Shown in pieces: positions 17,158 to 39,392 of a stretch of 64,000 nucleotides of DNA. The translations under genes and the position numbers were made by a program. The notes under the pieces were generated by a model. The model saw only the letters and a program-made list of their open reading frames with translations. It did not search any database and had not been told where the DNA came from. The first letter of the stretch is position 1, and every line of letters starts with the position of its first letter. This stretch comes from Solidesulfovibrio fructosivorans JJ] (GTDB taxonomy: Bacteria; Desulfobacterota; Desulfovibrionia; Desulfovibrionales; Desulfovibrionaceae): NCBI RefSeq assembly GCF_000179555.1, contig NZ_AECZ01000002.1, positions 186,001 through 250,000 on the forward strand. Direction: 5' to 3'.

Positions 17158-18377
17158 AGACCCGAATCCTGTTCGTCGACGACGAACCCAATGTGCTGTC
17201 CGCCCTGCGCCGCATGTTCCACGACATGCGGGGCGAGTGGGACATGGCCTTTGCCGCCGACGGCCCCACGGGGTTGGCCATGATCGCCGAGCGGCCTTTC
17301 GACGTGGTGGTGGCCGACATGCGCATGCCGGGCATGGACGGGGCCATGTTTTTGCGCGAGGTCCAGATCCAGAACCCCGGCGCCATCCGCATCGTGCTTT
17401 CCGGCCATTCCGACCGCAACATGGTGCTCGAGACCGTGCGCCCGGCCCACCAGTTTCTGCCCAAGCCCTGCCAGCCGGCCGACCTCAAGGCCGTCATCGA
17501 CAGGAGCCTGTCCCTGCGCGAGGTCTTTCTCGACGAGCGCGTCAAGGACGTGGTGGCCCGTCTCGACCGGCTGCCCACCGTGCCCCGGCTCTACGCCGAC
17601 CTGCTCGGGCTGCTGGCCCAGGAGGAGCCGTCCATGCGCGAGGTGGCCGGGCTCATCGCCCAGGACGTGGGCATGTCCGCCGGCATCCTGAAACTCGTCA
17701 ATTCCGCCTTTTTCGGCCTGCGCACCCATGTTTCGAGTCCGGCCCATGCCGTCAACCTGCTCGGGCTCGACGTGGTCAAGGCGCTGGTTCTCGGGGTGGG
17801 GCTTTTCGACAGGTTCGACAAGGAGGCCTTTCGCGATTTCGACCTGGAAAAGCTCTGGGGGCACAGCTTTGGCACCGGCCGGCTGGCCCGGGAGATCGCC
17901 GAACAGGAAGAGGCCACCTCGGCCGTGAAGGAGTACGCCTATATCGCCGGGTTGCTCCACGACGTGGGCAAACTGGTCATGGCCACCAATTTTCCGGACG
18001 CCTACCGGGACGTCATCGCCGCCTGCCGCGAGGGTCAGGGCACCGTCCTCGACATGGAGCGGATGTATTTCGGCGCCTCCCATGCCGAGGTCGGCGCGTA
18101 TCTGCTCGGGCTTTGGGGCGTGGAGGATCCGGTGGTGCGGGCGGTGTACCTGCACCATGAGCCCGGACGCGACCAGCGGGCCGGGTTCTCGCCGCTTCTG
18201 GCGGTGCATGTGGCCAACCGCTTCGAGCACGAGCTGGTGGTGATCCACCAGGGCTATGCCTTAAATCCCCTGGACGAGCTGTACCTGGCCGCATCCGGGC
18301 TGTCGGACCGCCTGCCCGCGTGGCGCGAGGCCTGCGCGGCGGTGGTGGCCCGGGGACCGATTCCCGAAGATATCTGA
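17154..18377 (+). CDS. Receiver-HDOD response regulator
   Basis: 407 residues from a GTG at 17154 that overlaps the kinase stop by 4 bases; an earlier in-frame ATG lies deep inside the kinase gene and is not used. The receiver (1-125) has DD at 9-10, Asp55 in VVVADMRMPG, Ser/Gly at SGHSD and Lys in FLPKPC. HDOD (about 140-400) contains VNSAFFGL, the LLHDVGKLVMAT block and the LHHEP motif. HDOD domains are signalling relatives of HD phosphodiesterases, generally without proven catalysis. It is the direct partner of the upstream kinase and is followed by a STAS protein. Confidence 0.93.
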   Translation: MKTRILFVDDEPNVLSALRRMFHDMRGEWDMAFAADGPTGLAMIAERPFDVVVADMRMPGMDGAMFLREVQIQNPGAIRIVLSGHSDRNMVLETVRPAHQFLPKPCQPADLKAVIDRSLSLREVFLDERVKDVVARLDRLPTVPRLYADLLGLLAQEEPSMREVAGLIAQDVGMSAGILKLVNSAFFGLRTHVSSPAHAVNLLGLDVVKALVLGVGLFDRFDKEAFRDFDLEKLWGHSFGTGRLAREIAEQEEATSAVKEYAYIAGLLHDVGKLVMATNFPDAYRDVIAACREGQGTVLDMERMYFGASHAEVGAYLLGLWGVEDPVVRAVYLHHEPGRDQRAGFSPLLAVHVANRFEHELVVIHQGYALNPLDELYLAASGLSDRLPAWREACAAVVARGPIPEDI

Positions 18378-18423
18378 CGCCAACGCCGCCTGGGCTTGCG
18401 GGGCGCGTGCCGGGAGGGACGTT

Positions 18424-18768
18424 ATGGACCTGACGACGACGCTGCACGGAACCTGTCTGGTGGTGGAAATCCATTCCCCGGAAGTGGACCACACGGTCAG
18501 CGAGGACTTCAAGGAGGCGGTGCTCGCGCGCTTTGAGACGTCCGGCGCGCGCGAACTGCTGCTCGACCTCGGTCCGGTGTCGTTTCTCGACAGCAAGGCC
18601 ATCGGCGCCATGGTGTCGGTACGCAAGACCGTCACCGCCAAGGGAGGCAAGCTCGGGCTGTACGGGCTTCAGCCTAATGTGGCGAAGATCATCCGGGTGG
18701 TGACCCTCGGCACGCTGTTCGAGGTCTACCCGGACCTGCAGACGGCGCTGGAGCGGGCCTGCGGGTAA
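18424..18768 (+). CDS. STAS-domain anti-sigma factor antagonist
   Basis: 114 residues, a lone STAS domain. The phosphorylation loop reads VSFLDSKAIGAM, with Ser57 after Asp56, as in SpoIIAA/RsbV. Such proteins bind an anti-sigma kinase when unphosphorylated and are reset by a SpoIIE/RsbU-type PP2C phosphatase. One lies immediately opposite (18796-19920), convergent with 27 bases between stops. It follows the REC-HDOD gene by 46 bases. No RsbW-type kinase or sigma factor is in the window, so the partner is elsewhere. Confidence 0.9.
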   Translation: MDLTTTLHGTCLVVEIHSPEVDHTVSEDFKEAVLARFETSGARELLLDLGPVSFLDSKAIGAMVSVRKTVTAKGGKLGLYGLQPNVAKIIRVVTLGTLFEVYPDLQTALERACG

Positions 18769-18795
18769 CCGCGCGCGAAGCGGGGGCGTTGCCGC

Positions 18796-19920
18796 TTAAT
18801 CCGAAAGCCGGCGCAACGCGGCCATGGCCAGGTCGTCCTGGAGGATGCCCTTGCAAAAGGGCAGGGCCGCTTCGATGATTTCGCCGATCAGGTCCTTTGG
18901 CGCAACGTCCGGGCGCAACAGCTGCAGCAACCGCCTTTCGCCGAAGAACTCCCGTCCCGGCGAGCGCAGCTCCGTCAGTCCGTCCGTGTAGCAAAACAGG
19001 ATGTCGCCCGGGGTGAAGGCCACGGTCTGGTCCGTGAAGGCATGGTCCGCAATGATGCCGAGGGCCGGGTCCTGGGAGTCGATTTCCACAATTCCCTTCG
19101 AAGACAGGATAAACGTCGGCACATGCCCGGCCGAGACCACGGTCAGCATCGGTCTTGTCCGCTCGATGCGGCACAGGACCATGGTCACGAACATGTCCAG
19201 GTCGCCGCCGTCGAGCATGTCGCATAAGAGCGTGTTGCACCGGCCGACGATCGCGGCCGGGGTGAGCCGCTCGGCGCGAAGCGAGACGAGCAGGCCCTTG
19301 CACACGGCCATGAGCATGGCCGCCGAGGCCCCGTGCCCCGAGATGTCGGCCATCAGCAGGTACACGCCGTCGCCGTCGTCCCAGGCCTCGTAGAAGTCCC
19401 CGCCCACCTGTTCCTGGGCTTGGTACACGGCCGCTGAATCGAATCCCGGAAAATTGAGGTCCTTGGGAAGGAGCTGGCGCTGCACGCAGCCGGCCAGGTA
19501 GCGCTCGCGGGAAAATAGGGCGTTTTGGGCCCGCAGTTCCCGCCCCAGGCGCGAGAGTTTGAGGTGCAGCGACAGCCGGGCCGCCAGTTCCTGGCGGTGG
19601 TAGGGCTTGGAGATGAAGTCGTTGGCCCCGGCCGAGAGGGCCTCGGCCCAGACGCGGCGGTCGGTTTCGGCGGACAGAAAGACGATGGGCACTTCGGCGA
19701 GCCCCGGCAGGGCCCGGATGCGGCGGATGGCCTCGATGCCGTCCATGCCCGGCATGACGAGGTCGAGCAGGATCATGTCCGGCCGGGCGCGGCCGGACAG
19801 GTCCACGGCTTCGGCCCCGTCGCGGGCCTCGATGACGTCGCAGTCGAAAAGGCCGGTCACATGGCGCTTGATGACTTCCCGGAAGATCGGATTGTCGTCG
19901 GCGATGAGCACCCGCGCCAT
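18796..19920 (-). CDS. Receiver-SpoIIE/PP2C serine phosphatase (RsbU/RssB-like)
   Basis: 374 residues. The receiver (1-125) has Asp53 in MILLDLVMPG and Lys in FISKPYH. A short coiled linker leads to a SpoIIE-type PP2C domain (about 160-374) with VGGDFYEAW, MADISGHGASAAMLM, SAGHVP, FCYTDGLTE and DDLAMAAL, covering the metal-binding aspartates. Phosphorylation of the receiver probably controls dephosphorylation of a STAS antagonist, the obvious candidate being the convergent gene at 18424-18768. Its 3' end faces that gene; upstream, MltA (ending 19943) is 22 bases away in the same direction. Confidence 0.93.
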   Translation of the reverse strand: MARVLIADDNPIFREVIKRHVTGLFDCDVIEARDGAEAVDLSGRARPDMILLDLVMPGMDGIEAIRRIRALPGLAEVPIVFLSAETDRRVWAEALSAGANDFISKPYHRQELAARLSLHLKLSRLGRELRAQNALFSRERYLAGCVQRQLLPKDLNFPGFDSAAVYQAQEQVGGDFYEAWDDGDGVYLLMADISGHGASAAMLMAVCKGLLVSLRAERLTPAAIVGRCNTLLCDMLDGGDLDMFVTMVLCRIERTRPMLTVVSAGHVPTFILSSKGIVEIDSQDPALGIIADHAFTDQTVAFTPGDILFCYTDGLTELRSPGREFFGERRLLQLLRPDVAPKDLIGEIIEAALPFCKGILQDDLAMAALRRLSD

Positions 19921-22263: not shown

Positions 22264-22635
22264 TCAGGGCAGCGGGTGGGTGCGGGCGTAGGCGAGCAGG
22301 TCCTCGTAGATTTCCTGGCAGGTGGCCACGGGCACGTCCGGGGCGAAAAGAACCGTGGGGCTGGTCGTGGTGAAAAGCTTGGCCCAGGGCTTGTTCTGCA
22401 ACTCTTCCCAGGCTCCCCAGCGTCCGTAGCTGATGACGCCCTGCACGCCTTGCAGGCGCAGCTCGAAGGACTCGTAGCCCATGGGGCCCTGCAGGGTCTG
22501 GGGACGGCTTTCATGAAACGGCCCGGCCTGGGCGGAAAAATAGAACCAGCCGCCGATCTGGATGTCCCCGAACCAGCGGTCCCCGTCGACCAGGCGATCC
22601 GTTTCCATAAGAAGCGTCCTGAAATCCTCGGCCAT
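22264..22635 (-). CDS. Conserved-looking hypothetical protein
   Basis: 123 residues from the ATG at 22635, chosen because AAGGAGG lies 6 bases upstream; an in-frame start 30 bases earlier lacks one. The protein is soluble and aromatic-rich in its middle (DRWFGDIQIGGWFYFSAQAG, then RWGAWEELQNKPWAKLF) with no signal peptide or membrane segment. I do not recognise the family. It is the last gene of the leftward cluster running from 30310, 57 bases after the phosphatase gene, so it may belong to that unit. Confidence 0.65.
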   Translation of the reverse strand: MAEDFRTLLMETDRLVDGDRWFGDIQIGGWFYFSAQAGPFHESRPQTLQGPMGYESFELRLQGVQGVISYGRWGAWEELQNKPWAKLFTTTSPTVLFAPDVPVATCQEIYEDLLAYARTHPLP

Positions 22636-22692
22636 GCCCGTCCTCCTTGGCGTATCGTGAGGCAAGCTTGTAGCCCGGGGAGCGGCTTCGGG

Positions 22693-23760
22693 TCAACGGC
22701 CGCCGTTTTGGGACAGGGCGAGCAGGTGCTTGAACACCGCCGACACGTAGCGTCCAGACACCACGTCGGGCAGGGGAAAGCGCGGCAGGTTTTCGCCGCC
22801 GAGTCCTCCGGCCAGGGCCAGGAACACCTGGCGCGACAGGGTGGCCAGTCCCGGCTCCAGCGCCTTTTCCCACAACCGCGTCGCCGCCTCGGCCTCGATG
22901 CCGTTCGTCAGGCAGGCCAGGGGACGGTTGGCGAAAATCAGGCACTTGTCCTGTCGCGACAGCGGGCACAAGCGGGCCCAGGCCGAAAGGCAGTGGGTGT
23001 TTCCCGCGCCGTAGCGGGCGGCAAGCTTTTCGATTTCCCGGGAGGCCCCGGCCGCGTCCTCGATGACGGCCAGGCGCGTTTCGCTGTCGAGGTCCACGTT
23101 GATGCGGTGGCTGACGTGCACCGCCTCGACAAGGGACAGGGACAGCGGCGTGCGGCAGCAGCGGGCGTGATCGCGCCCGCACCGGGGCAGCCCCTTGGCG
23201 GCGATGCGCGCGGCCGCGACCAGCCCGGCGTAATCGCCCAGGAACGGGGCCAGGTCGACCAGATGGCCGCTTTCCAGGCGCGGTTCGCGGATGGTGAGCC
23301 GGCCGGCCGCCCGGCCGTAGCGCCGGATGGTCCACCACTGGTCGAAGTTGGCCGGTTTGGCGCGAAGGGGCCGCAGCACCCGGGCGGCCATCTTGTGGCC
23401 GAGCCCCCGGCGCAGCAGGTAGGCGTTTAAGACCGTGCCGGTGCGGCCGATGCCGTGGCGGCAGTGGATGAGCACCTTCTTGCCGAGGTAGATGGCCTCG
23501 TCGAGCCAGGCCAGCGCTTTTTCCAGGGCCGGCAGGTCCGGGGCTTGCTCGTCGGGCACGGGCAGGTAATAGACTTCGAAGCCGGCGGCGGCCTCGATGT
23601 CGTGCAGGTCGCAAAATTCCGCGCACAGGTTGAGGATGGCCCCGATGCCCTGGTCCTTGAGCGACTTCAGTTGCTCGTTGGACATGGGCGCGCCGCCGAC
23701 GGCCAGATGTTCCGTGACCCAGGTCAGGGGGTAGGCGTGGTCGTCGGTCCCGGCGGTCAT
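22693..23760 (-). CDS. Dual-specificity phosphatase fused to a Cys-rich (YkgJ-like) domain
   Basis: 355 residues from the ATG at 23760. Residues about 12-170 are a dual-specificity/tyrosine phosphatase with the P-loop VLIHCRHGIGRTG (nucleophile Cys100, Arg106) and an acidic loop near LPVPDEQAPD that may supply the general acid. The C-terminal half has spaced cysteines (LPRCGRDHARCCRTP, NTHCLSAWARLCPLSRQDKC) followed by small helices, the pattern of YkgJ-type Fe-S or Zn-binding proteins. It begins 22 bases after the PEP/pyruvate-binding gene ends, in the same direction, so it is likely the phosphatase arm of that cluster. Confidence 0.87.
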   Translation of the reverse strand: MTAGTDDHAYPLTWVTEHLAVGGAPMSNEQLKSLKDQGIGAILNLCAEFCDLHDIEAAAGFEVYYLPVPDEQAPDLPALEKALAWLDEAIYLGKKVLIHCRHGIGRTGTVLNAYLLRRGLGHKMAARVLRPLRAKPANFDQWWTIRRYGRAAGRLTIREPRLESGHLVDLAPFLGDYAGLVAAARIAAKGLPRCGRDHARCCRTPLSLSLVEAVHVSHRINVDLDSETRLAVIEDAAGASREIEKLAARYGAGNTHCLSAWARLCPLSRQDKCLIFANRPLACLTNGIEAEAATRLWEKALEPGLATLSRQVFLALAGGLGGENLPRFPLPDVVSGRYVSAVFKHLLALSQNGGR

Positions 23761-23782
23761 GGCTGGCGGACGTTTTCCGGCG

Positions 23783-26246
23783 TTACCGGTCGGTTCTGGC
23801 CAAAAACGCCTCCACCCAGGCGTCGGCGTCGGCCTGGTCGGACAGGCGCATGTCGAGGAGCCGGGTCGCGGCGAGCAGGCAGCCGAGCATGGCCAGGCGT
23901 TTTTGCGCGATATGTTCGGGCACGCGGGCAAGGGTCGCGTCGAGCAGGTCGCCGGAGGCGCGCACGGTGAAGCCGAAGTGGGTCAGGATGCGGCGCACGC
24001 AGGCCAGGCGCAGGGCCCGGCTGGCGAAATCGGCTCCGCCGCCCTTGAAGCGGAAATTGACGAAGTTTTGCGCTTCCTTGGGGCCGCAGAGGGCGTCCAC
24101 CACGGTGAAGTGGTAGCCGAAGCGCAGCATGACGTGGGCGTAGAGGTCGGAGATGACGGCGTAGCTGGCCAGATGGCGGGCCTCGCCGGTAAAAAGGCCG
24201 GCGCTCGTGCGGTCGAGGGCCGCATCGTCGGTGATGGGCGGTCCCTCGGGCCAGGGAGCGTCCTCGGCGGCCAGTCCCGACCACAGGGCCCACATGGGCG
24301 CGCTCTTGATCTGGTCGGGTCGTAGCTCCTTGTCCGTTGCCGCGGATTCGAACACGCCCCCGCCGAGGTCGAGCACGTACATGCTCATGGGCAGGGCGCT
24401 TTTGACCTTGCGGGCCGAGGCCAGTCCCCGGCCGTCGTCGCCGACCAGGGAAAACATCTCGGTCACGGCCTTCTCGTGGGCGAAGCGCACGATGTCGTGA
24501 AAGGACCTGACCTTGGACGGCGTGAAATCCGGGGAGGCCGGGTCGGTCAGAGTGAGCCGGGCCAGAAGCGGCACCAGCCGCTCGAGCCGTTCGGCCACGG
24601 GCGAGCCGGCGGTGGGGGGCGCCTGGGCCGGGCGGCCCAGGAGTTCGGCCACCCGGCCGGGATAGACCGCCCCGGCGTCGGCGTCGACGGTCACTTCCTC
24701 TCCCTGGGGCAAAAGCGCGAAGGCGTCCGGCACCCCGGTCAGGACGGGCAGGCCGAATTCCCGGGCCACCGAAGCGAAATGCCCGGCCCGGCTGCCGGAA
24801 GCGGCGACCACGGCCGCGAGCCTGTCCACGGCCCGGGCCAGCGTGGTCGGCAGGGTGGGGGTGACGAGCACCGTGCCCGGGGTGATGGCCTCGATGTCGA
24901 GGATCGTCGGGGCATGGGCCACCACGCCGGCGGCCGCGCCGCCCGAGGCCCGCATGCCGCCGGCGGCGAGCGGCCGGGCGCCCCCGGCGACGGGGGGGCT
25001 CTTCCGGGGCGTTTCGGGCCTCGTCCTCCACGGCCATGGGCCGGGACTGGAGCACATGGAGCGCGCCGTCGGCGGTGGCCGCCCATTCCACGTCCTGGGG
25101 CGCGCCGAAGGCGTTTTCCAGGGCCAGCCCCAGTGCGGCGAGCGTGGCGGCGTCGTCGTCGGAAAGGACTTTCGTGTCGGGGGAAAGGCGCTCGAGCAGG
25201 GCATGCGGCGGCTCGTGGGAAAGCGCCAGCCGTTCGGGGCTGACGGCCCCTTCGACCAGGTCGCCTCCCAGGCCGGGCACGGCGTAGACGGCCATGGGCG
25301 CGCCCGGCGCGGCGCTGTCCCGCGTGTAGAGCACGCCCGAGGCGACGGCCGGCAGCATGGGCAGGTAGAGCACGGCCATGGGCGTTTCCGTATCGGCAAA
25401 TCCGGTCAGCGCCCGGTAGGTGATGGCCTTGGCCGTGTATTTGCCCGCGACCACCTTGCGGTAGGCGGCCACGGCGTCGGCGGCGTCGACGCCGAGCAGG
25501 CTCTCGTACTGGCCGGCGAAGGAGGCGCGCCCGTCCTCGGCCACGGCCGAGCTGCGGGCGGCCAGGGTAACCGTCGTCCCGTCCGGATTTCGGGCCAGGG
25601 CGGCGGCGGCTTCGGCCAGCGGCCCGGCCACTTCGTCCGGCACCGTGGCCGCCAGGACCAGCCGGCGGATTTCGGTCGCCGCCGTGGCCACGTCGTCGGG
25701 CTTGGACAGGTCCACCCGGCGCAGGGCGCGGTCGATTTTCGGGCGCAGTTCGCAGGCCTCCAGGAAATAGCGGAACGCGCCAGTGGTGACCACGAACCCG
25801 GGCGGCACGGGCACTCCGGCGTCGACCGCTGCCCGGGCCAGATTGGCGGCCTTGCCCCCGGCCCGTCCGGCGTCGCCGGCCACATCGGCGAGGGGCACGA
25901 CAAAGGGCTGGGCCATCTCGTCCCCCGGCACGTCCAGGGCCATCTGGACGTAAAAATCGACCTTCTTGGCGTATTCCGGCAGATCGAGATAACGGGTGGG
26001 GGACAGGCGCGAAAGCCGGGTCACCATCTCGTCCACGGCGGCGCGCAGCCGCTTGGTCAGGTGCACCACCCTGGCCCAGTCCGCCACGGTCGTTCCGTAG
26101 TGGATGTCCTCCACGGCGGCGATCAGCTCCAGGCAGACGTCGTCGAAGCGCAAAAGTTCCCGGAAGGCGTTGTACTTTTCCCGCAAGAGCACGCCCGGGG
26201 CAAAGACCTGGTAGGTCCAGCGTCTGAAAAGTTCCTTGGAAAACAC
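23783..26246 (-). pseudogene. PEP/pyruvate-binding (PPDK/PEP synthase-like) protein interrupted by a +1 frameshift
   Basis: Two reading frames together encode one ~820-residue protein. The upstream part (26246 to about 25000) has a ~120-residue helical start, then the PPDK N-terminal ATP-grasp marks GGKAANLARAAVDAGVPVPP, TLAARSSAVAEDGRASFAGQ and DVEWAATADGALHVLQSRP. The downstream part (about 25000 to 23783) continues in the +1 frame with the swivelling phosphohistidine domain (GHFASVAREFGLPVLTGV) and a ~330-residue tail that is not the PEP-synthase TIM barrel. The switch falls in a run of seven C on the coding strand (G7 at 24992-24998); six would restore one frame. It may be a real mutation, slippage or a sequence error. 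Without the barrel it is more likely a regulatory phosphotransfer protein than a true synthase. Confidence 0.85.
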
Positions 26247-26258
26247 GTCCCCTCCGGC

Positions 26259-26630
26259 CTATCCCGCGTCCAGACCGGCGAGCGCTTCCGCGACCTTGCG
26301 CTCCAGCTCTTCCTTGTCGATGGGTTTGACGCAGTATTCGCAGGCCCCCAGGCGCACGGATTCCCGGGCGGTCTCCAGGGTGGGATAGCCGGTCAGCATG
26401 ATGACGCGGGTTTCCGGGGAGAGCTTCTTGATTTCCTCAAGGACTTCCACGCCGCTCAATTTCTTGAGCTTCATGTCGAGGATGGCCAGCTGGGGCTTTT
26501 TCTTGGCCACATGGGCCAGGGCCTCCTCCTCCTCGGTGAAGACGCCGACGGTATGCCCTTTGCGTTCGAGAATGCGCTTGATGACGACGCCGGCGTCGAT
26601 GACGTCGTCGAGAACGATGATTGCGGCCAT
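26259..26630 (-). CDS. Single-domain response regulator receiver
   Basis: 123 residues, one receiver domain. The phosphoacceptor is Asp52 in LAILDMKLKK, with Thr in IMLTGYPTL and Lys in YCVKPIDK. The first acidic pair reads LDD, as usual. It lies 5 bases after the sensor kinase (26636-28693) and 12 bases before the PEP/pyruvate-binding gene, tightly packed in one operon. No output domain is present, so it probably acts by docking, with the neighbouring PEP/pyruvate-binding protein or phosphatase as candidate targets. Confidence 0.9.
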   Translation of the reverse strand: MAAIIVLDDVIDAGVVIKRILERKGHTVGVFTEEEEALAHVAKKKPQLAILDMKLKKLSGVEVLEEIKKLSPETRVIMLTGYPTLETARESVRLGACEYCVKPIDKEELERKVAEALAGLDAG

Positions 26631-26635
26631 GGGCG

Positions 26636-28693
26636 TTATCCCTCCATGGGGCCGGCGGGCAGCGGCCCGCCGATGGTTTCTTCATGCTCGAGGGGCAGAT
26701 CCACGATGAAGACGGCTCCCGGACCGGGAGCGCCTCCCGTGTCCACGTTGTCGAAAAAGCCCTGGGGTACGGGGCTTTGCACGCTGATGGAACCGCCGTG
26801 GTCCTGGATGATGCCGAAGGAGACGGAAAGCCCGAGGCCTGTTCCCTGGCCCACGGGCTTGGTGGTGAAAAACGGGTCGAAAATGCGCGAGCAGTTCTCG
26901 GGCGGGATGCCGGGCCCGGTGTCGGCGAACCAGGCCGTGACCTTCTGGTCGGCGACGAAAAGGCGCGAACGCACGAGCAGCGTGCCTCCCTGCCAGCCCA
27001 TGGCGTCCCGGGCGTTGGAAAGCAGGTTGATCCAGACCTGTTTGAGCTTTTCGGGGTCGCCGTAAATGATGGGCATGCGGTCGTCGAGGTCCGTGACGAT
27101 GGCCGCGTGTTCGAGGGAAAAGGCGTGGCGCACGAGGGTGATGGCTTCCATGAGCGAGTTGTTGAAGCACATTTCGATCTTGGCGCTTTCGGCCTGTCGG
27201 GAAAAGCCGAGCAGGTCGGCCACGATTTTGCGGCAGACCTTGGCCTGTTTCTCGATGGTTTGCAAATCGGCATGGATCTGGCTGTCGGTCGGCACGTCGT
27301 CCTGAAGGAGCTGGGCGTAGCCGAGGATGACGCCAAGCGGGGTGTTGATCTCGTGGGCCACGCCGCCGGCGAGCTTGCCCAGCGACTCCATCTTCTGGGA
27401 CTGGATGAGCTGTTCCTGGAACTGCTTGAGCTGGGTGACGTCGCGGGCGGTGCGCAGGAGGCCGATGGCCCTGCCCCGGGAATCGGTGATGGGCACGCGC
27501 ACCACGTGGAGCCAGACCGTGGTTCCGTTGCGGCGTAGCGACACTTCCCTGTCGCTCGGGCGCGAGCTTGCCAGCACCAGGGCGTTTTCATCGTGCATGG
27601 CCATGCCTTCGTCGGCCGGGAAGATGTCGCGGTCCGTGGTCCCGACGATGTCCTGGGGATCGAGGGCGACAAAGGCGGCAAAGGCGCGGTTGACGGCCAG
27701 ATAGGCGAGGTTTTCGTCGAGCAGGCAGACCAGGTCCGGGGTGGCGTCGAGGATGGTGCGCAGCAGCCGCTCCTGGCGCTTGAGCACCCGCTCGGTCCGG
27801 CGCAGCTCGTCGAGGTGGGTTTTCAAGGAAACGGCCATGACGTCGAAGGTTTCGGCCAGATCCTGGATCTCGTCGCCCTTCTGGGCGGCGTAGACCGGGC
27901 AGCCCCGGCACGATTCCGGCCCCTCGCCGCGCTGGTCGGGCGAGGCGGTCAGCCAGCAGCGGCGGTCGCGGTCGCCGTAGGCCGGACAGGCGGTCTTGTC
28001 GCAGGCGAGCATGGACGAGCAGGAGAAAAGGGCGCGCGGCCCGGCCCGCTGGTCCAGGTTGCCCTTGACCACTTCCTCGGCATGGGACTTGAGGCGGTTG
28101 ATGCGCTCGGTCACGCGCCGGGCGAAAAGCGTCGAGGGGGCCAGGGCCGCGATCATGGCCGTTGCCGAGTAGAAGACGATCATCAGCGCCAGCCTGTCGG
28201 CCCCGGCCTCGGCCTTGGTGCGCGAAAGCCCGATGCGGGTGGTGCCGAACGGCGTGCCGACAATGACCACCGGGGCGGCGAAGTCGTCGATGTATTCCCG
28301 GCCGTCGTCGAGGAGCTGGATGTGGGGCGCGCCGTTTTTCGGGGCATTGACCGTGCGCAGTTCCACCGGGAAGCCGCCCTTGAAGGTGTGGACCAGCACG
28401 TTGCCGTCGCGGTCGAGGATGAAGGCGTAGACGATGTCGTCGACCTTTTTGAGCTCGTCGACCATGTTTTTGAGCCGCAAAAGGTCCATGGACAGCATGG
28501 CGTCGGAGACCCGCATGGCCAGGTTCTCGGAGAGCACCATGCCGCGCTTTCTGGTCTCGGCCCTCAGCGATTCCGCCGCCGCCCGCCAGGTCAGGTAGGC
28601 CAGCGGAATGGTGATGAGTCCGACGATGAGCACGATGCCGCAGTTGATCTTGGTGCGGAAACTCAGGCGCGAGAGCTTGGGCCAGGCGATCAT
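26636..28693 (-). CDS. Membrane sensor histidine kinase with six-cysteine juxtamembrane module
   Basis: 685 residues from the ATG at 28693 (AGGAGG upstream, ATGA overlap with the PhnD-like gene). Two membrane segments at about 17-36 and 166-190 enclose a ~130-residue periplasmic domain. A HAMP-like stretch is followed by Cys225, 231, 236, 246, 262 and 265 in a CPAYG...RCW...CRGCPVY pattern, a recurrent cysteine module in deltaproteobacterial sensors that could bind metal or sense redox. Then a PAS (about 305-420), HisKA with His447 in LAGGVAHEINTPLG, and a HATPase with INLLSNARDA, DTGPGI, FDPFFTTKPVG and GTGLGLS. It should read the PhnD-like lipoprotein and signal to the 123-residue receiver. 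Confidence 0.93.
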   Translation of the reverse strand: MIAWPKLSRLSFRTKINCGIVLIVGLITIPLAYLTWRAAAESLRAETRKRGMVLSENLAMRVSDAMLSMDLLRLKNMVDELKKVDDIVYAFILDRDGNVLVHTFKGGFPVELRTVNAPKNGAPHIQLLDDGREYIDDFAAPVVIVGTPFGTTRIGLSRTKAEAGADRLALMIVFYSATAMIAALAPSTLFARRVTERINRLKSHAEEVVKGNLDQRAGPRALFSCSSMLACDKTACPAYGDRDRRCWLTASPDQRGEGPESCRGCPVYAAQKGDEIQDLAETFDVMAVSLKTHLDELRRTERVLKRQERLLRTILDATPDLVCLLDENLAYLAVNRAFAAFVALDPQDIVGTTDRDIFPADEGMAMHDENALVLASSRPSDREVSLRRNGTTVWLHVVRVPITDSRGRAIGLLRTARDVTQLKQFQEQLIQSQKMESLGKLAGGVAHEINTPLGVILGYAQLLQDDVPTDSQIHADLQTIEKQAKVCRKIVADLLGFSRQAESAKIEMCFNNSLMEAITLVRHAFSLEHAAIVTDLDDRMPIIYGDPEKLKQVWINLLSNARDAMGWQGGTLLVRSRLFVADQKVTAWFADTGPGIPPENCSRIFDPFFTTKPVGQGTGLGLSVSFGIIQDHGGSISVQSPVPQGFFDNVDTGGAPGPGAVFIVDLPLEHEETIGGPLPAGPMEG

Positions 28694-29628
28694 GCGTCCT
28701 CCTCGAGGGCGTCGAGGCCCAGCTTCTCGGCCAGCTGGCGCACGGAGCCGTAGTCGGCGTCCGTGGCCGGGATGATGCCGCGCATGCCGGCCGTGGTGAG
28801 GATCACGGCATCGTCGGGGCGGGCCATGGACAGGTGGAACATGGCCTTGGCGATGCGGTCCACGATCCGCGGCGAGAACCCGGCCCGGGCGGCGTAGACC
28901 CAGCCGGGATAGTCCTTGCTCTCGGCCAGCACGCGAATCTGGCCGATGTCGATCTTGCCGCGCAGGATGTCGAGAGTGCCGTCGCGAATGGAGCCCACGT
29001 CGTAGGTGCCGGCGAAAACGGCCAGCACCACCTTCTCCTGTTTGCCGCCAGGCCCCGGGGCGAAGCTTATCTCGGCGAAGTCCCGCCGCCTGATGCCGTG
29101 CTCGAAAAACTCGCCCAGGGCGTAGAGGTAGCCGCCGGCCGAGGACGGGTCCACGGCCATCCAGCGCTTGCCCCGGCAGTCCTCCAGGGTTTTTAGGGCC
29201 GCGTTGTCGCGGCGGCAGATGATCTGGCTCTTGAAATCCGGCTTGCCCGAGGGCTCGATGATGCGGGCAAAGGCCCGGGCCCCGGAGCGGGCCATGCGGA
29301 TGTAGGCAAAGGGGTTGGAAAAGGAAATGTCGATTTCGCCGCGCTCCACCATGCGCACGTGTTCCTCGAAAGTATCGGGGAATATCTGGCGCAGGTTGAG
29401 CCCCGTGGCCCGGCCGAGGTATTCGAGCAGCAGCCGGTGGCGCTCGTAGGAGACGGTGTGGGCGTACTGGGGCAGGTAGGCGTAGGTGATGGCCTTGGGC
29501 GGCAGGCGCAGGGTGGGTTCCTCGCGCTTGGACAGGTCCACGCGCACGGCGTCCTCGCCGTTGCCGCAGCCCCACAGCAGGGCGGCGGGCAAGGTAAAAA
29601 GGGCGCAAAGCGCCTCGCGTCGCCGCAT
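28690..29628 (-). CDS. PhnD-like periplasmic substrate-binding lipoprotein
   Basis: 312 residues from the ATG at 29628 (AGGAGG upstream). The N-terminus (MRRREALCALFTLPAALLWGC) is a lipoprotein-like signal, with Cys21 as likely lipid site. The body matches the PhnD/phosphate-phosphonate binding fold: AITYAYLPQYAHTVSYERHR, EIDISFSNPFAYIRM, KRWMAVDPSSAGGYLY and SIRDGTLDIL. No ABC permease or ATPase follows; instead the stop overlaps a sensor kinase (ATGA). So it is more likely a ligand-presenting sensor subunit than part of a transporter, as in TorT/TorS-like systems. Ligand unknown. Confidence 0.9.
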   Translation of the reverse strand: MRRREALCALFTLPAALLWGCGNGEDAVRVDLSKREEPTLRLPPKAITYAYLPQYAHTVSYERHRLLLEYLGRATGLNLRQIFPDTFEEHVRMVERGEIDISFSNPFAYIRMARSGARAFARIIEPSGKPDFKSQIICRRDNAALKTLEDCRGKRWMAVDPSSAGGYLYALGEFFEHGIRRRDFAEISFAPGPGGKQEKVVLAVFAGTYDVGSIRDGTLDILRGKIDIGQIRVLAESKDYPGWVYAARAGFSPRIVDRIAKAMFHLSMARPDDAVILTTAGMRGIIPATDADYGSVRQLAEKLGLDALEEDA

Positions 29629-29713
29629 GGTACGACCTCCTGGATGTTCTCCAGGATACGTGACTTTTGGCCGGCTGGGAAGGGCGGGACGTTTTTCCGT
29701 TTGTCCCGGGGCG

Positions 29714-30310
29714 TTAGGACTTGTCCGGCTGCGAATCGGCGGTTTGGGCTTCCTGTGGCTTGCCGAGTTCGGTCCAGGGACGCAGGCGCACGCGCTTGGC
29801 GGCCACCTCCCGGCGCAGCCGCTCCACGCGGCCAAAAAGCGGCAGGTAGCGCCAAAACGACCACATGACCAGGCGGAAAATGAGGTAGAGCCCGAGGAAG
29901 ACGGCGTTGTAGCGCACGAAGTAGCCGGGGAAAAGCGGGATGTCGATGTCGGTGAAGCGCATCGACAGCCAGGCCAGGACAAAGGGCAGGGGCCAGATGG
30001 AGACGGAAAAAAGGGCCGCTCCGGCGAAAAAGGATTTGCCGAAGGCCTCGTTGGCTTCCTTGTTGGCGGCTTTGTAGGCGACCTTGTCCCGGGCCTCGAT
30101 GGCGGCCACGGACAGGTTGTGCATGCGCACCATCTCGGCTTCTTCCTTGGTGTAGTGCTTGCGGTTGAAAAGCCAGACCAGGTCGAAGGTGATGCGGCCC
30201 ACAAGCAGGCAGGCCAGGGCCAGGACAGCGGTGCCCAGGTAGAAGGCGGCCGTGGAATTGGGCAGGAGCCGGTAGGGGGCGATGAGTATGGCGTCGAGGA
30301 TGTTGAACAC
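29714..30310 (-). CDS. Membrane protein of unknown function
   Basis: 198 residues from a GTG at 30310; no strong ribosome site. About three membrane segments: near 20-45, 92-112 and 130-150. Between the first and second lies a charged helix (NRKHYTKEEAEMVRMHNLSV) rich in Lys, Glu and Ala. The C-terminal tail is basic and soluble. The membrane-coiled helix-membrane layout faintly recalls EMC3/TMCO1-type (DUF106) proteins, but I cannot assert that. It precedes the PhnD-like gene by 85 bases in the same direction and may open that unit. Confidence 0.65.
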   Translation of the reverse strand: MFNILDAILIAPYRLLPNSTAAFYLGTAVLALACLLVGRITFDLVWLFNRKHYTKEEAEMVRMHNLSVAAIEARDKVAYKAANKEANEAFGKSFFAGAALFSVSIWPLPFVLAWLSMRFTDIDIPLFPGYFVRYNAVFLGLYLIFRLVMWSFWRYLPLFGRVERLRREVAAKRVRLRPWTELGKPQEAQTADSQPDKS

Positions 30311-30594: not shown

Positions 30595-31740
30595 TTAGAT
30601 GCTGATGCCGAAGAAGCCACGCAGGACGTAGCGGCTGCCGACATACAGGGCGAGGATGATGAAAAGGCGCTTGAGCCAGATGTCGGGAATGTACTTGGAG
30701 GTGCGGGGCCCGATGACGGAGCCGAGCACGATGCCGAGCAGTTCGATGCCGATCAGGTGCCAGTGAATGGCCACGCCGCCGGACATGAAGGTGGTGATGG
30801 AGGTGATCATGCCGACCAGCACGGCCAGGGCGGAGGTGCCGGCGGCCAGGTACATGGGCAGCTGGGCCACGTTGGTCAGGAAGGGCACGAGCAGGAAGCC
30901 GCCGCCAACGCCGAGGAAGGCGGCCACGGCGGCGATGATGATGCCGCCGACGAAGGGGATCAGCGGGTTGAAGGAGAATTCCACGCCGTAGAAGGTGAAG
31001 GACACGCGGGTGAGGGCAATGCCGGTGACATGGACGCCGAGGGCCTTGGTGTCGATCTGCTCGCCGCTCTTCTGGCGCTTGACGGTTTCCTCGAAGGCCT
31101 TGGCGGCTTCCTTGGCCTTTTTCTTGCTGGCCTGGGCGGCGGCGGTGGTGCCCCAGAAGAGGTAGACGCCGAGCAGCAGGACGAACAGGCCGAAGTAGCC
31201 CTGGTAGGCGGAGAAGGACACCTTGCCCTGGGACAGGGTGACGGACAGCCAGCTGCCGGCGATGGAGCCGGCGCCCAGCGACACGGCCAGGGGCAGCACA
31301 AGGCGGCCCATCTTCCAGTAGTTGAACGAGGAGATCAGCGCCGACAGGCCGACCAGGCACTGGTTGGACACGCGGATGGAGTCGGTGATGAACTTGTTGA
31401 GCGAGGGCGCGGTGTTTTTAAACGACTTGGCGTAGTTGCCGAGGCCGTACACCGTGATGTGGCCGACGCCGGCCATGACGCCGCCGAAGGCGCCGACGGT
31501 GGAGAAGATCCAGCCGACCCACACGGCCCAGCAGAAGGCCAGGATGAGGTTGACCTGGGGCGCGCCGGGGATGCCGAGGAAGCCTTTGGGCGCGGCCGGG
31601 TCGATGTGGCCGGGGCCGGTGCCGGTGGGGGCCGAGGCGATGGCGTCGGCCAGCTTGTCGGCAAAGGCCGGATGGGTCCACATGGTCAGGACCACCAGGG
31701 CGACGAGGCCCAGGGGCAGGGTCAGTTTCCAGTTTTTCAC
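30595..31740 (-). CDS. TauE/SafE family anion exporter
   Basis: 381 residues from the GTG at 31740, chosen because AAGGAG lies 8 bases upstream and a hydrophobic N-terminal segment follows at once (LTLPLGLVALVVLTMWTHPA). About eight membrane segments are seen. TauE/SafE repeats appear twice (STVGAFGGVMAGVGH and AAFLGVGGGFLLVPFL), separated by a ~60-residue basic cytoplasmic loop (KKKAKEAAKAFEETVKRQKS). The family exports sulfite, sulfoacetate and related sulfur or organic anions; in a sulfate reducer, sulfite or another oxyanion is plausible. A strong promoter-like site and a CRP/HcpR-like dyad lie upstream. Confidence 0.92.
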   Translation of the reverse strand: MKNWKLTLPLGLVALVVLTMWTHPAFADKLADAIASAPTGTGPGHIDPAAPKGFLGIPGAPQVNLILAFCWAVWVGWIFSTVGAFGGVMAGVGHITVYGLGNYAKSFKNTAPSLNKFITDSIRVSNQCLVGLSALISSFNYWKMGRLVLPLAVSLGAGSIAGSWLSVTLSQGKVSFSAYQGYFGLFVLLLGVYLFWGTTAAAQASKKKAKEAAKAFEETVKRQKSGEQIDTKALGVHVTGIALTRVSFTFYGVEFSFNPLIPFVGGIIIAAVAAFLGVGGGFLLVPFLTNVAQLPMYLAAGTSALAVLVGMITSITTFMSGGVAIHWHLIGIELLGIVLGSVIGPRTSKYIPDIWLKRLFIILALYVGSRYVLRGFFGISI

Positions 31741-32006
31741 GATGCGTTCTCCTTGCTTTGGCGGCATCCGTAGAACCGTTGCGCAGTGGGCGCGCGGTCG
31801 GGTCGTGACCGCGGCCGCTCCTTGAGCCGGAAGCGGGGCGACACCATGCCTGCCGCCGCAATTGAAAGCCTTGTCGCGTGCAACCACTGTTTCATGCGAG
31901 ATGCGTCATGCGTTGCCAGCCTGCTTCGCATGTCGCGAAATGCGTGTTGCAGCAGTCGCCCAAGGCCGTCCGACCGTCCGTGACGGGCCGTAAAAGATTT
32001 TGTTGC

Positions 32007-32115: not shown

Positions 32116-32133
32116 TTGTGATCTATTTCACAA
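32116..32133. promoter_or_regulatory. CRP/FNR-family dyad (HcpR-like site)
   Basis: TTGTGA-TCTATT-TCACAA, perfect 6-bp arms with a 6-base centre. It matches the CRP consensus and the form described for HcpR sites of Desulfovibrio species. It lies about 80 bases upstream of the TTGACA on the TauE strand and about 480 bases before the next plus-strand gene, so TauE/SafE is the likelier target. Confidence 0.65.
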
Positions 32134-33686: not shown

Positions 33687-34193
33687 CTACATCTGCCGCA
33701 GCAGGACGCGTTTGCCGTAGGCCTCGCGTTCGTCCGGCGCGGGCGCATCGGGGCGCACGAAACGCAGGGCGTGGGCGGTGCAGCCGGTGACGCAGGCCGG
33801 ATCCAGCCCCGCGTCGATGCGGTCGCGGCAGTAATCGCACTTGACCACCTTGCCCGTGGCTTCGTTCCACTGGGGAATGCGCCAGGGGCAGGCCTGGATG
33901 CAGGCCTTGCAGCCCACGCACAATTCTTCCCGCACGTAGACCACGCCGTCGTCCTCGCGCCGGGTCATGGCCCCGGTGGGGCAGGCCGGCACGCACCATG
34001 GCTTTTCGCAGTGGTAGCACGACATATAGAGGTTCAAAAGGCGCGGCTTGCCCTTGGCCATGTCCGGGCCGACGGACACCAGCTTGCCCGGTTTGGCCGA
34101 GGCCGGCACGCCGTTTTTGACCTGGCAGTGCACCTCGCAGGCATGGCAGGCGATGCAGCGCTTCTTGTCGAGTTGGATCATGTACTTGCTCAT
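33687..34193 (-). CDS. Four-cluster ferredoxin-like Fe-S subunit (PsrB/HycB/DmsB-like)
   Basis: 168 residues from the ATG at 34193 (AAGGAG upstream, ATGA overlap with the preceding gene). Sixteen cysteines in DmsB/PsrB-style groups: CIACHACEVHC, CYHCEKPWCVPACP, CVGCKACIQACP and CDYCRDRI...CVTGC, sufficient for four [4Fe-4S] clusters. It has no twin-arginine or Sec signal, so the complex should be cytoplasmic. Such proteins pass electrons to or from a molybdopterin catalytic subunit. The candidate is the divergent gene at 35020-37113, whose family normally pairs with exactly this type. Confidence 0.92.
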   Translation of the reverse strand: MSKYMIQLDKKRCIACHACEVHCQVKNGVPASAKPGKLVSVGPDMAKGKPRLLNLYMSCYHCEKPWCVPACPTGAMTRREDDGVVYVREELCVGCKACIQACPWRIPQWNEATGKVVKCDYCRDRIDAGLDPACVTGCTAHALRFVRPDAPAPDEREAYGKRVLLRQM

Positions 34194-34789
34194 GCGGGCT
34201 CCTTGGCGGCGGCGGGCTCGGGCGACGCTTCGAGGGCCTGCTTTCGCAGGCGGGTCAGCAGGTCGAGGCGGAAGTCTTCGCGCCGCGTGCCGATGAAATA
34301 GGCGTGGCGGGAAAAGCGCAGCGAAGCGACGGGGCAGATTCTCACGCACTGGCCGCACAGGCTGCACAGGGAATAGTCGTAAGTAAAAACGCCGGGGAAC
34401 TTGCAGCCCTTTTGCGGGGCCGGGGCCATCATCTCGATGCGGGGGATGAGCTCCCCGACCATCTCCTCGGCCTCGCGCCCCTTGGGGCCGGCGTCGCCCA
34501 CCGGGCAGGCCACCGATAGGCAGTTCGATGGACAGGCCCGCACGCAGGCCCCGCAGGCCACGCAGCGCGGGCTCCCCGGATCGTCCTCCTTGCCGACCAG
34601 CTCCACATGTCCCCGGTAGCTGTCGAGGTTTTTCACCTCGCCCATGGGGTAAAGCACCGTGACGTTCGGCTTGGTCAGGGCTTGGCCTGTGATGCCGAGG
34701 CCCACAAACAGACTTTTGATTCCCGTGGCCGCTTCGGCCAGGAGTTCGGTCAGGGTCACGCCCAACCTCCTGCGGCGTTCACCGCTCAC
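34190..34789 (-). CDS. NuoI-like 2[4Fe-4S] ferredoxin-type protein
   Basis: 199 residues. Two CxxCxxCxxxCP motifs, CVACGACVRACP and CSLCGQCVRICP, lie within a NuoI/EchF-like frame. Between them is an extra ~45-residue stretch with three more cysteines (NCLSVACPVG, KGCKFPG). No membrane segment or signal. NuoI-type proteins carry electrons between soluble modules and other clusters. Its stop overlaps the four-cluster protein's start, so the pair forms an operon, divergent from the molybdoenzyme. Together they may link it to ferredoxin, NADH or a hydrogenase; the donor is not shown. Confidence 0.88.
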   Translation of the reverse strand: MSGERRRRLGVTLTELLAEAATGIKSLFVGLGITGQALTKPNVTVLYPMGEVKNLDSYRGHVELVGKEDDPGSPRCVACGACVRACPSNCLSVACPVGDAGPKGREAEEMVGELIPRIEMMAPAPQKGCKFPGVFTYDYSLCSLCGQCVRICPVASLRFSRHAYFIGTRREDFRLDLLTRLRKQALEASPEPAAAKEPA

Positions 34790-34841: not shown

Positions 34842-35019
34842 CGATTGGGGCATAAGTTCCCGCCTTCACAAACATTGCCTGCGGATAGCGTGATTCAGTA
34901 TAGTACACGTTCCTCATTTCACAACACTTTTTTCTTGCCACGGGTCACGAATTTCAAGTAATGCGTGAAAGAATCAAATATTTCCGGCAAACGCAACGCC
35001 GCCTGGATTGGAGCGAATC

Positions 35020-37748: not shown

Positions 37749-39392
37749 ATGGCACAACTGCATGAAAAAGCGGTCGAGGACAGCTCGATCGGTCCGTATA
37801 GCTTTGAGCAATTTTTGGAAGTCGCCGCCGCCTTTCACGGCAATCCCGCGCCGGGACTCATTATAGGCGGCTTCATGGTGGACGCGGCCAGGGCCTTTCT
37901 GCCCGAGGGCATCCTTTTCGACGCCGTGGTCGAGACGAAAAAGTGCCTGCCCGACGCGGTCCAGATCCTCACGCCGCCAAGCTTCGGCAACGGCTGGATG
38001 CGGGTGCTGAACCTCGGCCGCTACGCTTTGTCCCTCTACGACAAGTTCACGGGCGAAGGCTATCGCGTCTGGCTCGATCCCGGGCATTTGCGGGCCTGGC
38101 CGGAAATTCATTCCTGGTACCTCAAGACCAAGCCGAAAAAGGAACAGGACCGGCAGCGTCTTTTCGCCGAGATCAAGGCCGGCGGCCGTTCGCTTTGCCG
38201 GGTGGCCAAGGTGCGGGTGCGGCCGAATTTCGTGGCCAAGCCCCACATGGGGGCCATCGGCGTGTGCCCGGTTTGCGGCGAGGGCTATCCCGCCGCCGAC
38301 GGGGCCATCTGCCGGGGCTGCGCCGGCGAGGCGCCCTATGTCCGGGAAAACGAGTCGCCGAGGCTTCGGGCCATGCCGGTCGGCGAGGCGGCCGGCCGCC
38401 GGGCGCTTCACGACATGACCCGCATCGTGCCCGGCCGCTCCAAGAGCGTGGAATTTTCCGCCGGGGCCGCCATCACCGCCGGCGACGTCTGCCGGCTTCA
38501 GACCATGGGCAAGAACCGGGTCTACGTGGAGGATCTCTCCGAGCCGGACGGCGAATTCATCCATGAAAACGAAGCCGCCCTGGCCTTTGCCGAGGCCATG
38601 GCCGGTCCGGGCATCGTGACTTCCGGGCCGCCGCGCGAGGGCAAGGTGGAACTGCTCGCCGAGGCCGACGGCCTGCTCACCCTGGACAAGGAGCGTCTGG
38701 TCGCCTTCAACCTCATCGAGGGCGTCATGTGCGCCAGCCGGCAGGCCAATCTGGTGGTGGAGGCGGACAAGGCCGTGGCCGGTTGCCGGGCCATTCCGCT
38801 GTACCTGCCGCGCCGGGTTTTTTCCGCCGCCATGCATGTGCTCGAGGCCGGGCCGCTTTTCGTGGTGCGGCCGATTCGAAAGGCCAAGGTGGGCGTGCTG
38901 GTCACGGGCACGGAGGTCTTTTCGGGGATTATCGAGGACAAGTTCGAGCCTGTGGTGCGGGCCAAGGTCGAGGCGCTCAAGGGGACGGTCGTGGCCGCCG
39001 AGAAGGTCCCGGACGACCGCGCGGCCGTGGCCGAGGGCGTGGGGAAGCTGCTTGCCGCCGGGGCCGACCTGATCGTCACCACGGCCGGGCTTTCCGTCGA
39101 TCCCGACGATGTGACGCGGCTCGGCCTCGACGACGCCGGGCTTGCCGACGCCGTGCACGGCATGCCGGTTTTGCCCGGGGCCATGGCGCTGGTGGGGCGC
39201 ATCGGCGACGCCGACGTCATCGGCGTGCCGGCCTGCGCGCTTTTTCACCGCACCACCAGCTTCGATCTGCTGCTGCCCCGGGTATTGGCCGGCCTGCGGC
39301 CGACCCGCCGCGATCTGGCCGTCATGGCCGAAGGGGCCATGTGCCTGTCCTGCCGGGCCTGCACCTATCCCAAGTGTCCGTTCGGCAAATAG
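37749..39392 (+). CDS. FmdE - molybdopterin-binding domain fusion protein
   Basis: 547 residues. About 15-195 is FmdE-like (FEQFLEVAAAFHGNPAPGLI ... IHSWYLKTK) with a zinc-type knuckle Cys173, Cys176, Cys188 and Cys191 (CPVCGEGYPA ... CRGC). About 370-505 is a MoaB/MoeA-type molybdopterin-binding domain (VLVTGTEVFSGIIEDKFEPV, TTAGLSVDPDDVT). The end has four more cysteines (MCLSCRACTYPKCPFGK), a possible metal or Fe-S site. FmdE was named for formylmethanofuran dehydrogenase operons, but fusions like this are met near bacterial Mo enzymes; a maturation or cofactor-insertion role for the 35020-37113 enzyme is the natural reading. Confidence 0.9.
   Translation: MAQLHEKAVEDSSIGPYSFEQFLEVAAAFHGNPAPGLIIGGFMVDAARAFLPEGILFDAVVETKKCLPDAVQILTPPSFGNGWMRVLNLGRYALSLYDKFTGEGYRVWLDPGHLRAWPEIHSWYLKTKPKKEQDRQRLFAEIKAGGRSLCRVAKVRVRPNFVAKPHMGAIGVCPVCGEGYPAADGAICRGCAGEAPYVRENESPRLRAMPVGEAAGRRALHDMTRIVPGRSKSVEFSAGAAITAGDVCRLQTMGKNRVYVEDLSEPDGEFIHENEAALAFAEAMAGPGIVTSGPPREGKVELLAEADGLLTLDKERLVAFNLIEGVMCASRQANLVVEADKAVAGCRAIPLYLPRRVFSAAMHVLEAGPLFVVRPIRKAKVGVLVTGTEVFSGIIEDKFEPVVRAKVEALKGTVVAAEKVPDDRAAVAEGVGKLLAAGADLIVTTAGLSVDPDDVTRLGLDDAGLADAVHGMPVLPGAMALVGRIGDADVIGVPACALFHRTTSFDLLLPRVLAGLRPTRRDLAVMAEGAMCLSCRACTYPKCPFGK

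Follow-up and report, generated by a model that had tools for sequence, protein, structure and literature searches.

A conserved gene cluster of sulfate-reducing bacteria combining a PhnD-type sensor, a lone receiver, a dikinase-like protein and a phosphatase: a possible signalling unit for sulfur-oxyanion uptake

We studied a gene cluster in a 64,000-nucleotide stretch of the Solidesulfovibrio fructosivorans JJ genome (contig NZ_AECZ01000002.1, positions 186,001 to 250,000; hereafter the window). All its genes lie on the minus strand and encode, in order of transcription, a TauE/SafE-family membrane transporter, a membrane protein of 198 amino acids (aa), a PhnD-family substrate-binding lipoprotein, a histidine kinase, a receiver-only response regulator, a dikinase-like phosphoenolpyruvate (PEP)/pyruvate-binding protein (hereafter the PEP-like protein) and a dual-specificity-type phosphatase, followed by a 123-aa gene. 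Our results indicate that this module is a real and ancient one of sulfate reducers. We tentatively propose, at a confidence that falls a little short of even, that it is a signalling unit controlling the uptake of sulfur oxyanions through TauE/SafE, in which a sensor acts via the lone receiver on a dikinase-like PEP-family output opposed by the phosphatase. The locus is known genetically, and its signalling output has no explanation in the literature that we found. We regard the back end as a novel variation, since its PEP-like protein has an uncharacterised C-terminal domain and is coupled with a phosphatase and a receiver encoded apart from it.

The five genes from phnD to the phosphatase are separated by -4 (phnD to kinase), 5 (kinase to receiver), 12 (receiver to PEP-like gene) and 22 bases (PEP-like gene to phosphatase), in agreement with the tight spacing noted in a preliminary description of this DNA, which was made from the sequence alone and treated positions 22264-30310 as one possible signalling system; upstream, 85 bases separate the 198-aa protein gene from phnD, and 284 bases separate TauE from the 198-aa protein gene. 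The phnD product (28690..29628) is a PhnD/PtxB-family protein (PF12974, E 4.2e-57) with an N-terminal signal and Cys. The kinase (26636..28693) is a membrane histidine kinase to which Pfam assigns sCache_3_2, HAMP, PAS, HisKA and HATPase_c domains, with a Cys-rich insert between HAMP and PAS; the regulator (26259..26630) consists of 123 aa with a lone Response_reg domain (PF00072) and the active-receiver residues DD, D, T and K; and the phosphatase (22693..23760; PF00782, PF22785) carries the P-loop HCRHGIGRTG and a Cys-rich C-terminal tail. The TauE/SafE-family gene is given here by the extent of its open reading frame (30595..31887; PF01925, E 2.7e-24), its true start probably lying further inside, and the 198-aa protein (29714..30310), which displays two hydrophobic stretches, had no match in Pfam or NCBIfam. 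No component of an ATP-binding cassette (ABC) transporter was found among the eight genes examined, consistent with the earlier view that the PhnD-like protein is paired with a histidine kinase rather than with ABC partners.

To assess conservation, a synteny set of 115 loci was used (35 found by the PEP-like protein and 80 by the phosphatase), comprising 104 distinct loci, 103 of them with the phosphatase; counts were made on the 70 distinct loci with at least 7 kb of upstream and at least 4 kb of downstream sequence, anchored on the phosphatase gene, with loci devoid of it excluded. The order phnD-kinase-receiver-PEP-phosphatase, whose conservation the preliminary description had left to be checked, is kept in 44 of these 70 loci (10/10 from the same genus and 34/60 elsewhere), and the PEP-like gene directly precedes the phosphatase gene in 68. 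Five further loci hold all parts in rearranged form, which are convergent downstream in L149 and L155, on the same strand downstream in L137 and L138, and divergent in L067; a receiver of the module type is present in the flanks of 59 loci. As a control, the flanking mltA and HDOD genes were found in 10/10 same-genus loci and in 0/60 of the others. Conservation of the five-gene unit exceeds chance, and its description as one real, tightly packed and conserved set stands. Carriers include Desulfovibrionaceae, Desulfomicrobium, Desulfonatronum, Desulfobulbaceae and Desulfosarcina. Further, among 199 genomes of the class, which are related and not independent, orthologues of phnD and the phosphatase gene occur together in 113, the phosphatase alone in 1, phnD alone in 7, and neither in 78.

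Regarding the limits of the unit, TauE lies near the module in 34 of the 70 loci, in 33 of which the 198-aa membrane protein is also present (TauE alone in 1, the membrane protein alone in none), and both were counted as members because of this joint occurrence. The 123-aa gene (22264..22635), which has no family assignment, is highly conserved in 10/10 same-genus loci and present in 1/60 others; being confined to the genus, it was rejected as a sixth member of the module. The preliminary description was right in seeing one unit, but it wrongly took in the 123-aa gene and left out TauE, the likely target. The module is divided in four genomes of a single genus (G020, G101, G111 and G136), which keep it as two unlinked loci, with TauE, the membrane protein, phnD, the kinase and a diverged second PEP-like gene at one locus, and the PEP-like and phosphatase genes at the other; at the first locus, a receiver match was not seen in three of the four genomes. 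Two arrangements were noted at individual loci. In L230, L231, L232 and L234, a diverged second PEP-like gene (28-37% identity) directly follows the kinase (or receiver) gene, with the PEP-phosphatase pair elsewhere. A longer-regulator variant occurs in L056 (5158-12852), where the PEP-phosphatase pair is preceded by PhnD, by a kinase of 524 aa and by a regulator of 448 aa, each of the three being only about 30% alike to its counterpart in the module.

The module corresponds to a published nitrate cluster, DVU0251-DVU0245/Dde_0597-0605 (Korte et al., 2014; PMC4001038). In that article, the cluster is ordered as TauE, a hypothetical protein (588 bp), PtxB/PhnD, a kinase, a lone receiver (360 bp), a PEP/pyruvate-binding protein and a dual-specificity phosphatase, and the window agrees with it in all seven gene types and in their sequence along the DNA (7/7 against its Table 3), the match being one of annotation and position. 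Therefore, the earlier remark that no described system with this exact set was known is not supported. The window TauE is the positional homologue of DVU0251/Dde_0598, the 198-aa protein occupies the position of DVU0250, and the phosphatase has DVU0245/Dde_0605 as its counterpart. The loci also differ, since in D. vulgaris the kinase gene DVU0248 carries a pseudogene annotation while the window has an intact kinase and a frame-broken PEP-like gene, and DVU0246 is annotated with 744 codons, compared with about 820 for the window PEP-like gene. As reported there, D. alaskensis mutants in each of the seven homologues, assayed as a pool, displayed nitrate fitness values from 2.08 to 3.51, D. vulgaris single mutants in DVU0251, DVU0250, DVU0247 and DVU0246 were fully resistant, with equal growth with and without 100 mM nitrate, and mutants of the cluster were mildly sick on thiosulfate; the authors, who termed the genes poorly annotated, proposed a non-specific entry of nitrate through a leaky thiosulfate transporter (PMC4001038). 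Within these data, the mutant phenotypes, which would be unrelated if the preliminary description were wrong in joining the genes, are mostly shared in both species, the exception being the phosphatase in D. vulgaris. Of the papers found, PMC4001038 alone discusses these genes; as for other sources, DVU0251 is named once, in a listing, in PMC3431258, neither the locus tags of the cluster nor TauE is mentioned in PMC10102598, and PMC4092371 and PMC6190851 were discarded as nitrate-cluster papers, having only a coincidence of phrase. No signalling model for the cluster was found in the literature searched, the coverage of which was partial, and a mechanism may be in print.

One alternative is a co-regulated neighbourhood in which anion sensing, transport and phosphate handling answer to a common need with no direct phosphoryl link among the products. 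The deviating kinase and phosphatase phenotypes in D. vulgaris, as well as the absence of TauE from the vicinity of about half of the loci, are in line with such an arrangement; however, the association of the genes survives inversion, relocation and splitting, and in the D. alaskensis pool the mutants of every homologue agree, so that we consider it decidedly improbable.

The sensor front end retains its expected residues. In the sequence sets used for residue conservation, which contain 11 duplicate records, [GAS]C is found within the first 40 residues of PhnD in 70/71 sequences; the kinase H-box is kept in 65/66, as is the Cys-rich insert (27899..28021; C-x5-C-x4-C-x-CW-x-CxxC) that follows HAMP; and the receivers display DD..D in 88/89, TGYPT in 87/89 and KP in 89/89 sequences. 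The sensor domain of the kinase is of the sCache_3_2 type (E 5.1e-7). Relatives of PhnD in the PDB are PtxB, HtxB, AioX and ArrX, oxyanion binders by name, with PtxB (E 1.5e-16) being closer than AioX (E 1.8e-10) and ArrX (E 2.7e-10); these relatives agree with an oxyanion ligand, yet do not name it. As the lone receiver has no DNA-binding domain, it would have to act on a protein.

In the window, the gene for the PEP-like protein is divided into two halves lying in different frames. The N half (24998..26246, with a GTG start at 26246) encodes a helical N-terminal domain and an ATP-grasp domain (PPDK_N; PF01326, E 2.5e-64), and the C half (23783..24982, with its stop at 23783) encodes the swivelling domain that bears the phospho-His (PF00391), followed by an uncharacterised C-terminal domain some 275 aa long. 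The frame shift falls at a C7 run (24992..24998) in the linker between the ATP-grasp and His domains, where the nearest relative is one base shorter in the alignment; the gene is single-frame in 35/35 relatives, with products of 797-865 aa (once 1075 aa), and the break in this assembly may be either a sequencing error or a true mutation. The domains given in the preliminary description for this protein were thus correct, although its reading as one frame was not. The 1075-aa protein (L068, 6865-10089) has a long C-terminal extension and no adjoining phosphatase gene.

The catalytic residues of this protein are intact, as K132, R230, E236, D237, E386, Q399 and R401 of the ATP-grasp domain and H489 of the swivelling domain are invariant in 53/53 aligned relatives; the same holds for the polar residues D584, R587, H590, E591 and H712 of the C-terminal domain. 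The C half displays no match to the TIM barrel PF02896, and the C-terminal domain no match to any Pfam family, at E 0.01; NCBIfam models of PEP synthase align to just the first two domains and score far under their cut-off. Thus, the protein was rejected as a plain PEP synthase for want of the TIM barrel, and the combination of ATP-grasp and phospho-His parts devoid of that barrel, as first described, is borne out by Pfam and by structural comparison. For the latter, the full-length model was that of L086 (mean pLDDT 86.3), whose VIA matches cover only residues 112-556 and indicate rifampin phosphotransferase (5hv3, Z 37.2), PEP synthase (2ols, Z 33.3) and pyruvate, phosphate dikinase (PPDK; 1kbl, Z 27.1) as the nearest solved structures. 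The His domain occupies model residues 421-535, after the ATP-grasp domain, with about 275 residues following it, so the order of rifampin phosphotransferase (ATP-grasp, substrate domain, C-terminal His domain) is not the one found here. When the C-terminal domain (pLDDT 84) was searched alone, the best Foldseek E value was 0.015, the best VIA score was Z 6.7, a background level that is compatible with a known fold, and the best profile-search E value was 0.59; no match was obtained in the plasmid search.

These nearest structures, along with the active-site-like set of invariant residues in the C-terminal domain, could also fit a metabolic dikinase, in which the PEP-like protein would act on a small molecule through that domain, the phosphatase would remove the phosphate, and the two-component genes would regulate the operon indirectly. 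We hold this to be unlikely, on the grounds that a DNA-binding domain is absent from the receiver and that the PEP family repeatedly adjoins receivers. The family defined by the C-terminal domain is present in at least 73 of 197 genomes of the phylum, with six members in the genome studied here. For its context outside the cluster, 40 loci were hand-picked among the matches listed, one per genome and each the best listed non-cluster match, leaving out those of G302, G219 and G330 (contig edges) and of G242 and G389 (adjoining phosphatase gene); 20 stretches at arbitrary coordinates, taken from large contigs in these genomes and scored at their mid-positions, served as controls, and the receiver model was built from the cluster receivers and iterated over all loci, controls included. 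In 19/40 loci the PEP-family gene has a receiver domain no more than 500 bp away, vs 1/20 controls (one-sided Fisher test, 6.6e-4), and when the distance is raised to 1.5 kb and kinases are counted as well, the figures are 24/40 vs 2/20 (one-sided Fisher test, 1.8e-4); a denser control gave a receiver within 500 bp in 2/60 pseudo-genes, taken from the same 20 stretches and hence not independent. Since 14 of the 19 adjoining receivers are in open frames of at most 152 aa, they are probably receiver-only. In the genome studied here, contig 37 (L084, 8716-16601) carries a PEP-family gene, then a lone receiver of 138 aa, two more PEP-family genes and a DUF202 protein, and another paralogue comes after a HisKA-REC-REC-Hpt hybrid. 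A further paralogue, on contig 3 (L082, 6856-11577), lies near a sodium:sulfate symporter gene on the opposite strand.

Somewhat less probable, in our judgement, than the proposal for the cluster itself is a broader reading, under which PPDK-type dikinases that have this C-terminal domain and no TIM barrel may be a general output of receiver-only regulators in Desulfobacterota. The phosphorylated receiver would then control a phospho-His machine powered by ATP, by which a membrane transporter or another target is marked, the phosphatase of the nitrate cluster being dedicated to erasing the mark. If true, two-component signalling in sulfate reducers would have a post-translational branch by which oxyanion uptake is set. 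Alternatively, in a phosphorelay, the swivelling His could exchange phosphate directly with the receiver, making the PEP-like protein an Hpt-like element or a phosphate sink with its C-terminal domain as effector; the adjacency of both genes in the cluster and beside the 19 other family members, as well as the paralogue following the Hpt-containing hybrid, are consistent with this scheme. We nevertheless doubt it, given that the ATP-grasp residues, invariant in all 53 relatives, would be needless for a pure phosphotransfer protein.

The phosphatase is likewise conserved, with a P-loop that follows the pattern HC..G.GRTG in 110/111 sequences, HCRHGIGRTG being identical in 102, and a Cys-rich tail in which the C..CC motif is kept in 104/111 and the RP..C motif in 111/111; its early description as a dual-specificity phosphatase with a special tail is confirmed by the DSPc assignment and by this conservation in relatives. 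A dikinase with ATP-grasp and phospho-His domains next to a dual-specificity phosphatase is also the pairing of glucan water dikinase and glucan phosphatase, and the module could be imagined as a bacterial counterpart acting in reversible glycan phosphorylation. However, glucan phosphatases (SEX4/laforin) carry a CxAGxGR P-loop, which is not that of the 102 sequences, no carbohydrate domain was found at E 0.01, and the context is one of an anion sensor and a transporter; this counterpart was dropped, as we consider it very improbable.

Under the signalling proposal for the cluster, a sulfur oxyanion, most likely thiosulfate, would be taken up through TauE/SafE and its small membrane partner, and this uptake would be controlled by the unit. 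The PhnD-family lipoprotein would bind the anion in the periplasm and present it to the sCache histidine kinase, which would phosphorylate the receiver-only regulator. The partner of this receiver would be the PEP-like protein, in which the ATP-grasp domain would charge the swivelling histidine, and the C-terminal domain, which takes the place of the PEP synthase TIM barrel, could serve as the phosphoryl acceptor or as a target-binding domain. The output would turn the TauE route on, with the phosphatase opposing or resetting it. If nitrate enters or acts via the same route, mutants devoid of most members would be nitrate-resistant; the opposite behaviour of the DVU0245 mutant would fit an opposing or resetting role, with which D. 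alaskensis disagrees.

Several observations weigh against this proposal. In the published data, the DVU0245 phosphatase mutant was still nitrate-sensitive, with a pooled value of -6.04 as opposed to +2.08 for Dde_0605, DVU0250 had a pooled value of -5.82, yet its single mutant was resistant, and the DVU0248 mutant, tested singly, gained little if anything in nitrate (PMC4001038). Moreover, 11 of the 70 loci have no receiver above threshold in their flanks, TauE is nearby in just 34, 21 of the 40 other PEP-family members have no receiver within 500 bp, and the window's own PEP-like gene is frame-broken. What the data show is the gene set, its co-inheritance and the intact catalytic residues, and the phosphoryl chemistry is inferred.

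The surroundings of the module include genes of possible relevance to sulfur metabolism. A PhsA-like molybdopterin enzyme is encoded near 22 of the 70 distinct loci; in the window it lies at 35008-37113 on the plus strand, divergent from ferredoxin-type genes at 33687-34367 (DmsB-like) and 34190-34789 on the minus strand, and in Desulfopila (L139) a response regulator, a molybdenum enzyme, a ferredoxin and a GAF-type kinase flank a TauE-PEP-phosphatase-membrane protein arrangement. The NCBIfam cut-off for the thiosulfate reductase PhsA (694 bits) was reached neither in the window (497) nor in L139 (552.7). Upstream of TauE, 336 bases ahead of the start of its homology, the palindrome TTGTGA-N6-TCACAA (32116..32133) is a candidate operator, which fits the consensus of Rex-type and of CRP-type sites equally well; a loss of rex could also act through sat, and Rex is not claimed here as a regulator of the cluster. 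The palindrome is exact in 11/12 same-genus upstream regions and present with at most one mismatch in 7/28 other distinct loci, vs 1/800 control stretches, the loci being related. A simple promoter and terminator scan gave signals not above those of shuffled sequence, and the scans yielded no Rfam matches and no tRNAs. Two neighbouring features were also recorded. Adjoining the module, an HDOD receiver protein, a STAS protein and a receiver-SpoIIE phosphatase (16713-19920), found in 9-10 of the 10 same-genus loci and in 0/60 others, possibly form a separate partner-switching set, and a single protein at 37749-39392 combines an FmdE domain with treble-clef finger and a MoCF_biosynth domain.

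The cluster is of practical relevance, as nitrate is injected into oil fields against souring and loss of the cluster makes sulfate reducers nitrate-resistant, with the role of its signalling genes in this resistance left without explanation in the literature found. If the receiver gates the dikinase-like protein, a large class of lone receivers, and of 'PEP/pyruvate-binding' proteins to which no function has been assigned, would share one role open to testing, and sulfate reducers would be seen to regulate their TauE-type anion uptake.

In comparison with known systems, the front end of the module, constituted by PhnD and the kinase, belongs to an already known type of sensor. AioX/AioS-AioR and ArrX/ArrS-ArrR are sensing systems of a PhnD-family binding protein plus a histidine kinase, and the module resembles them in that its PhnD-family protein has as neighbour a membrane-bound kinase whose sensor domain is periplasmic, and no ABC genes; it differs from them in having a lone receiver as regulator, with an ATP-grasp/phospho-His protein and a phosphatase as partners. 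A fainter likeness was found to the tetrathionate sensor TtrS, in which a PhnD-like binding domain is fused to the kinase, as phnD matches NF040750 weakly (E 3.2e-6, 25.9 bits) and far below its cut-off of 750. At the back end, the PEP-like protein shares the ATP-grasp and swivelling phospho-His domains with PEP synthase, PPDK and rifampin phosphotransferase, but has no PEP/pyruvate TIM barrel, and has in addition the uncharacterised C-terminal domain and the helical N-terminal domain. A parallel to the proposed coupling is that of response regulators with a PPDK output, reported as REC-PPDK fusions in Bacteroides and Heimdallarchaeota (PMC5847659); there, as is proposed for the module, a receiver is coupled to a PPDK-type protein, and whereas those regulators are fused, the receiver and the PEP-like protein of the module are encoded by separate genes.

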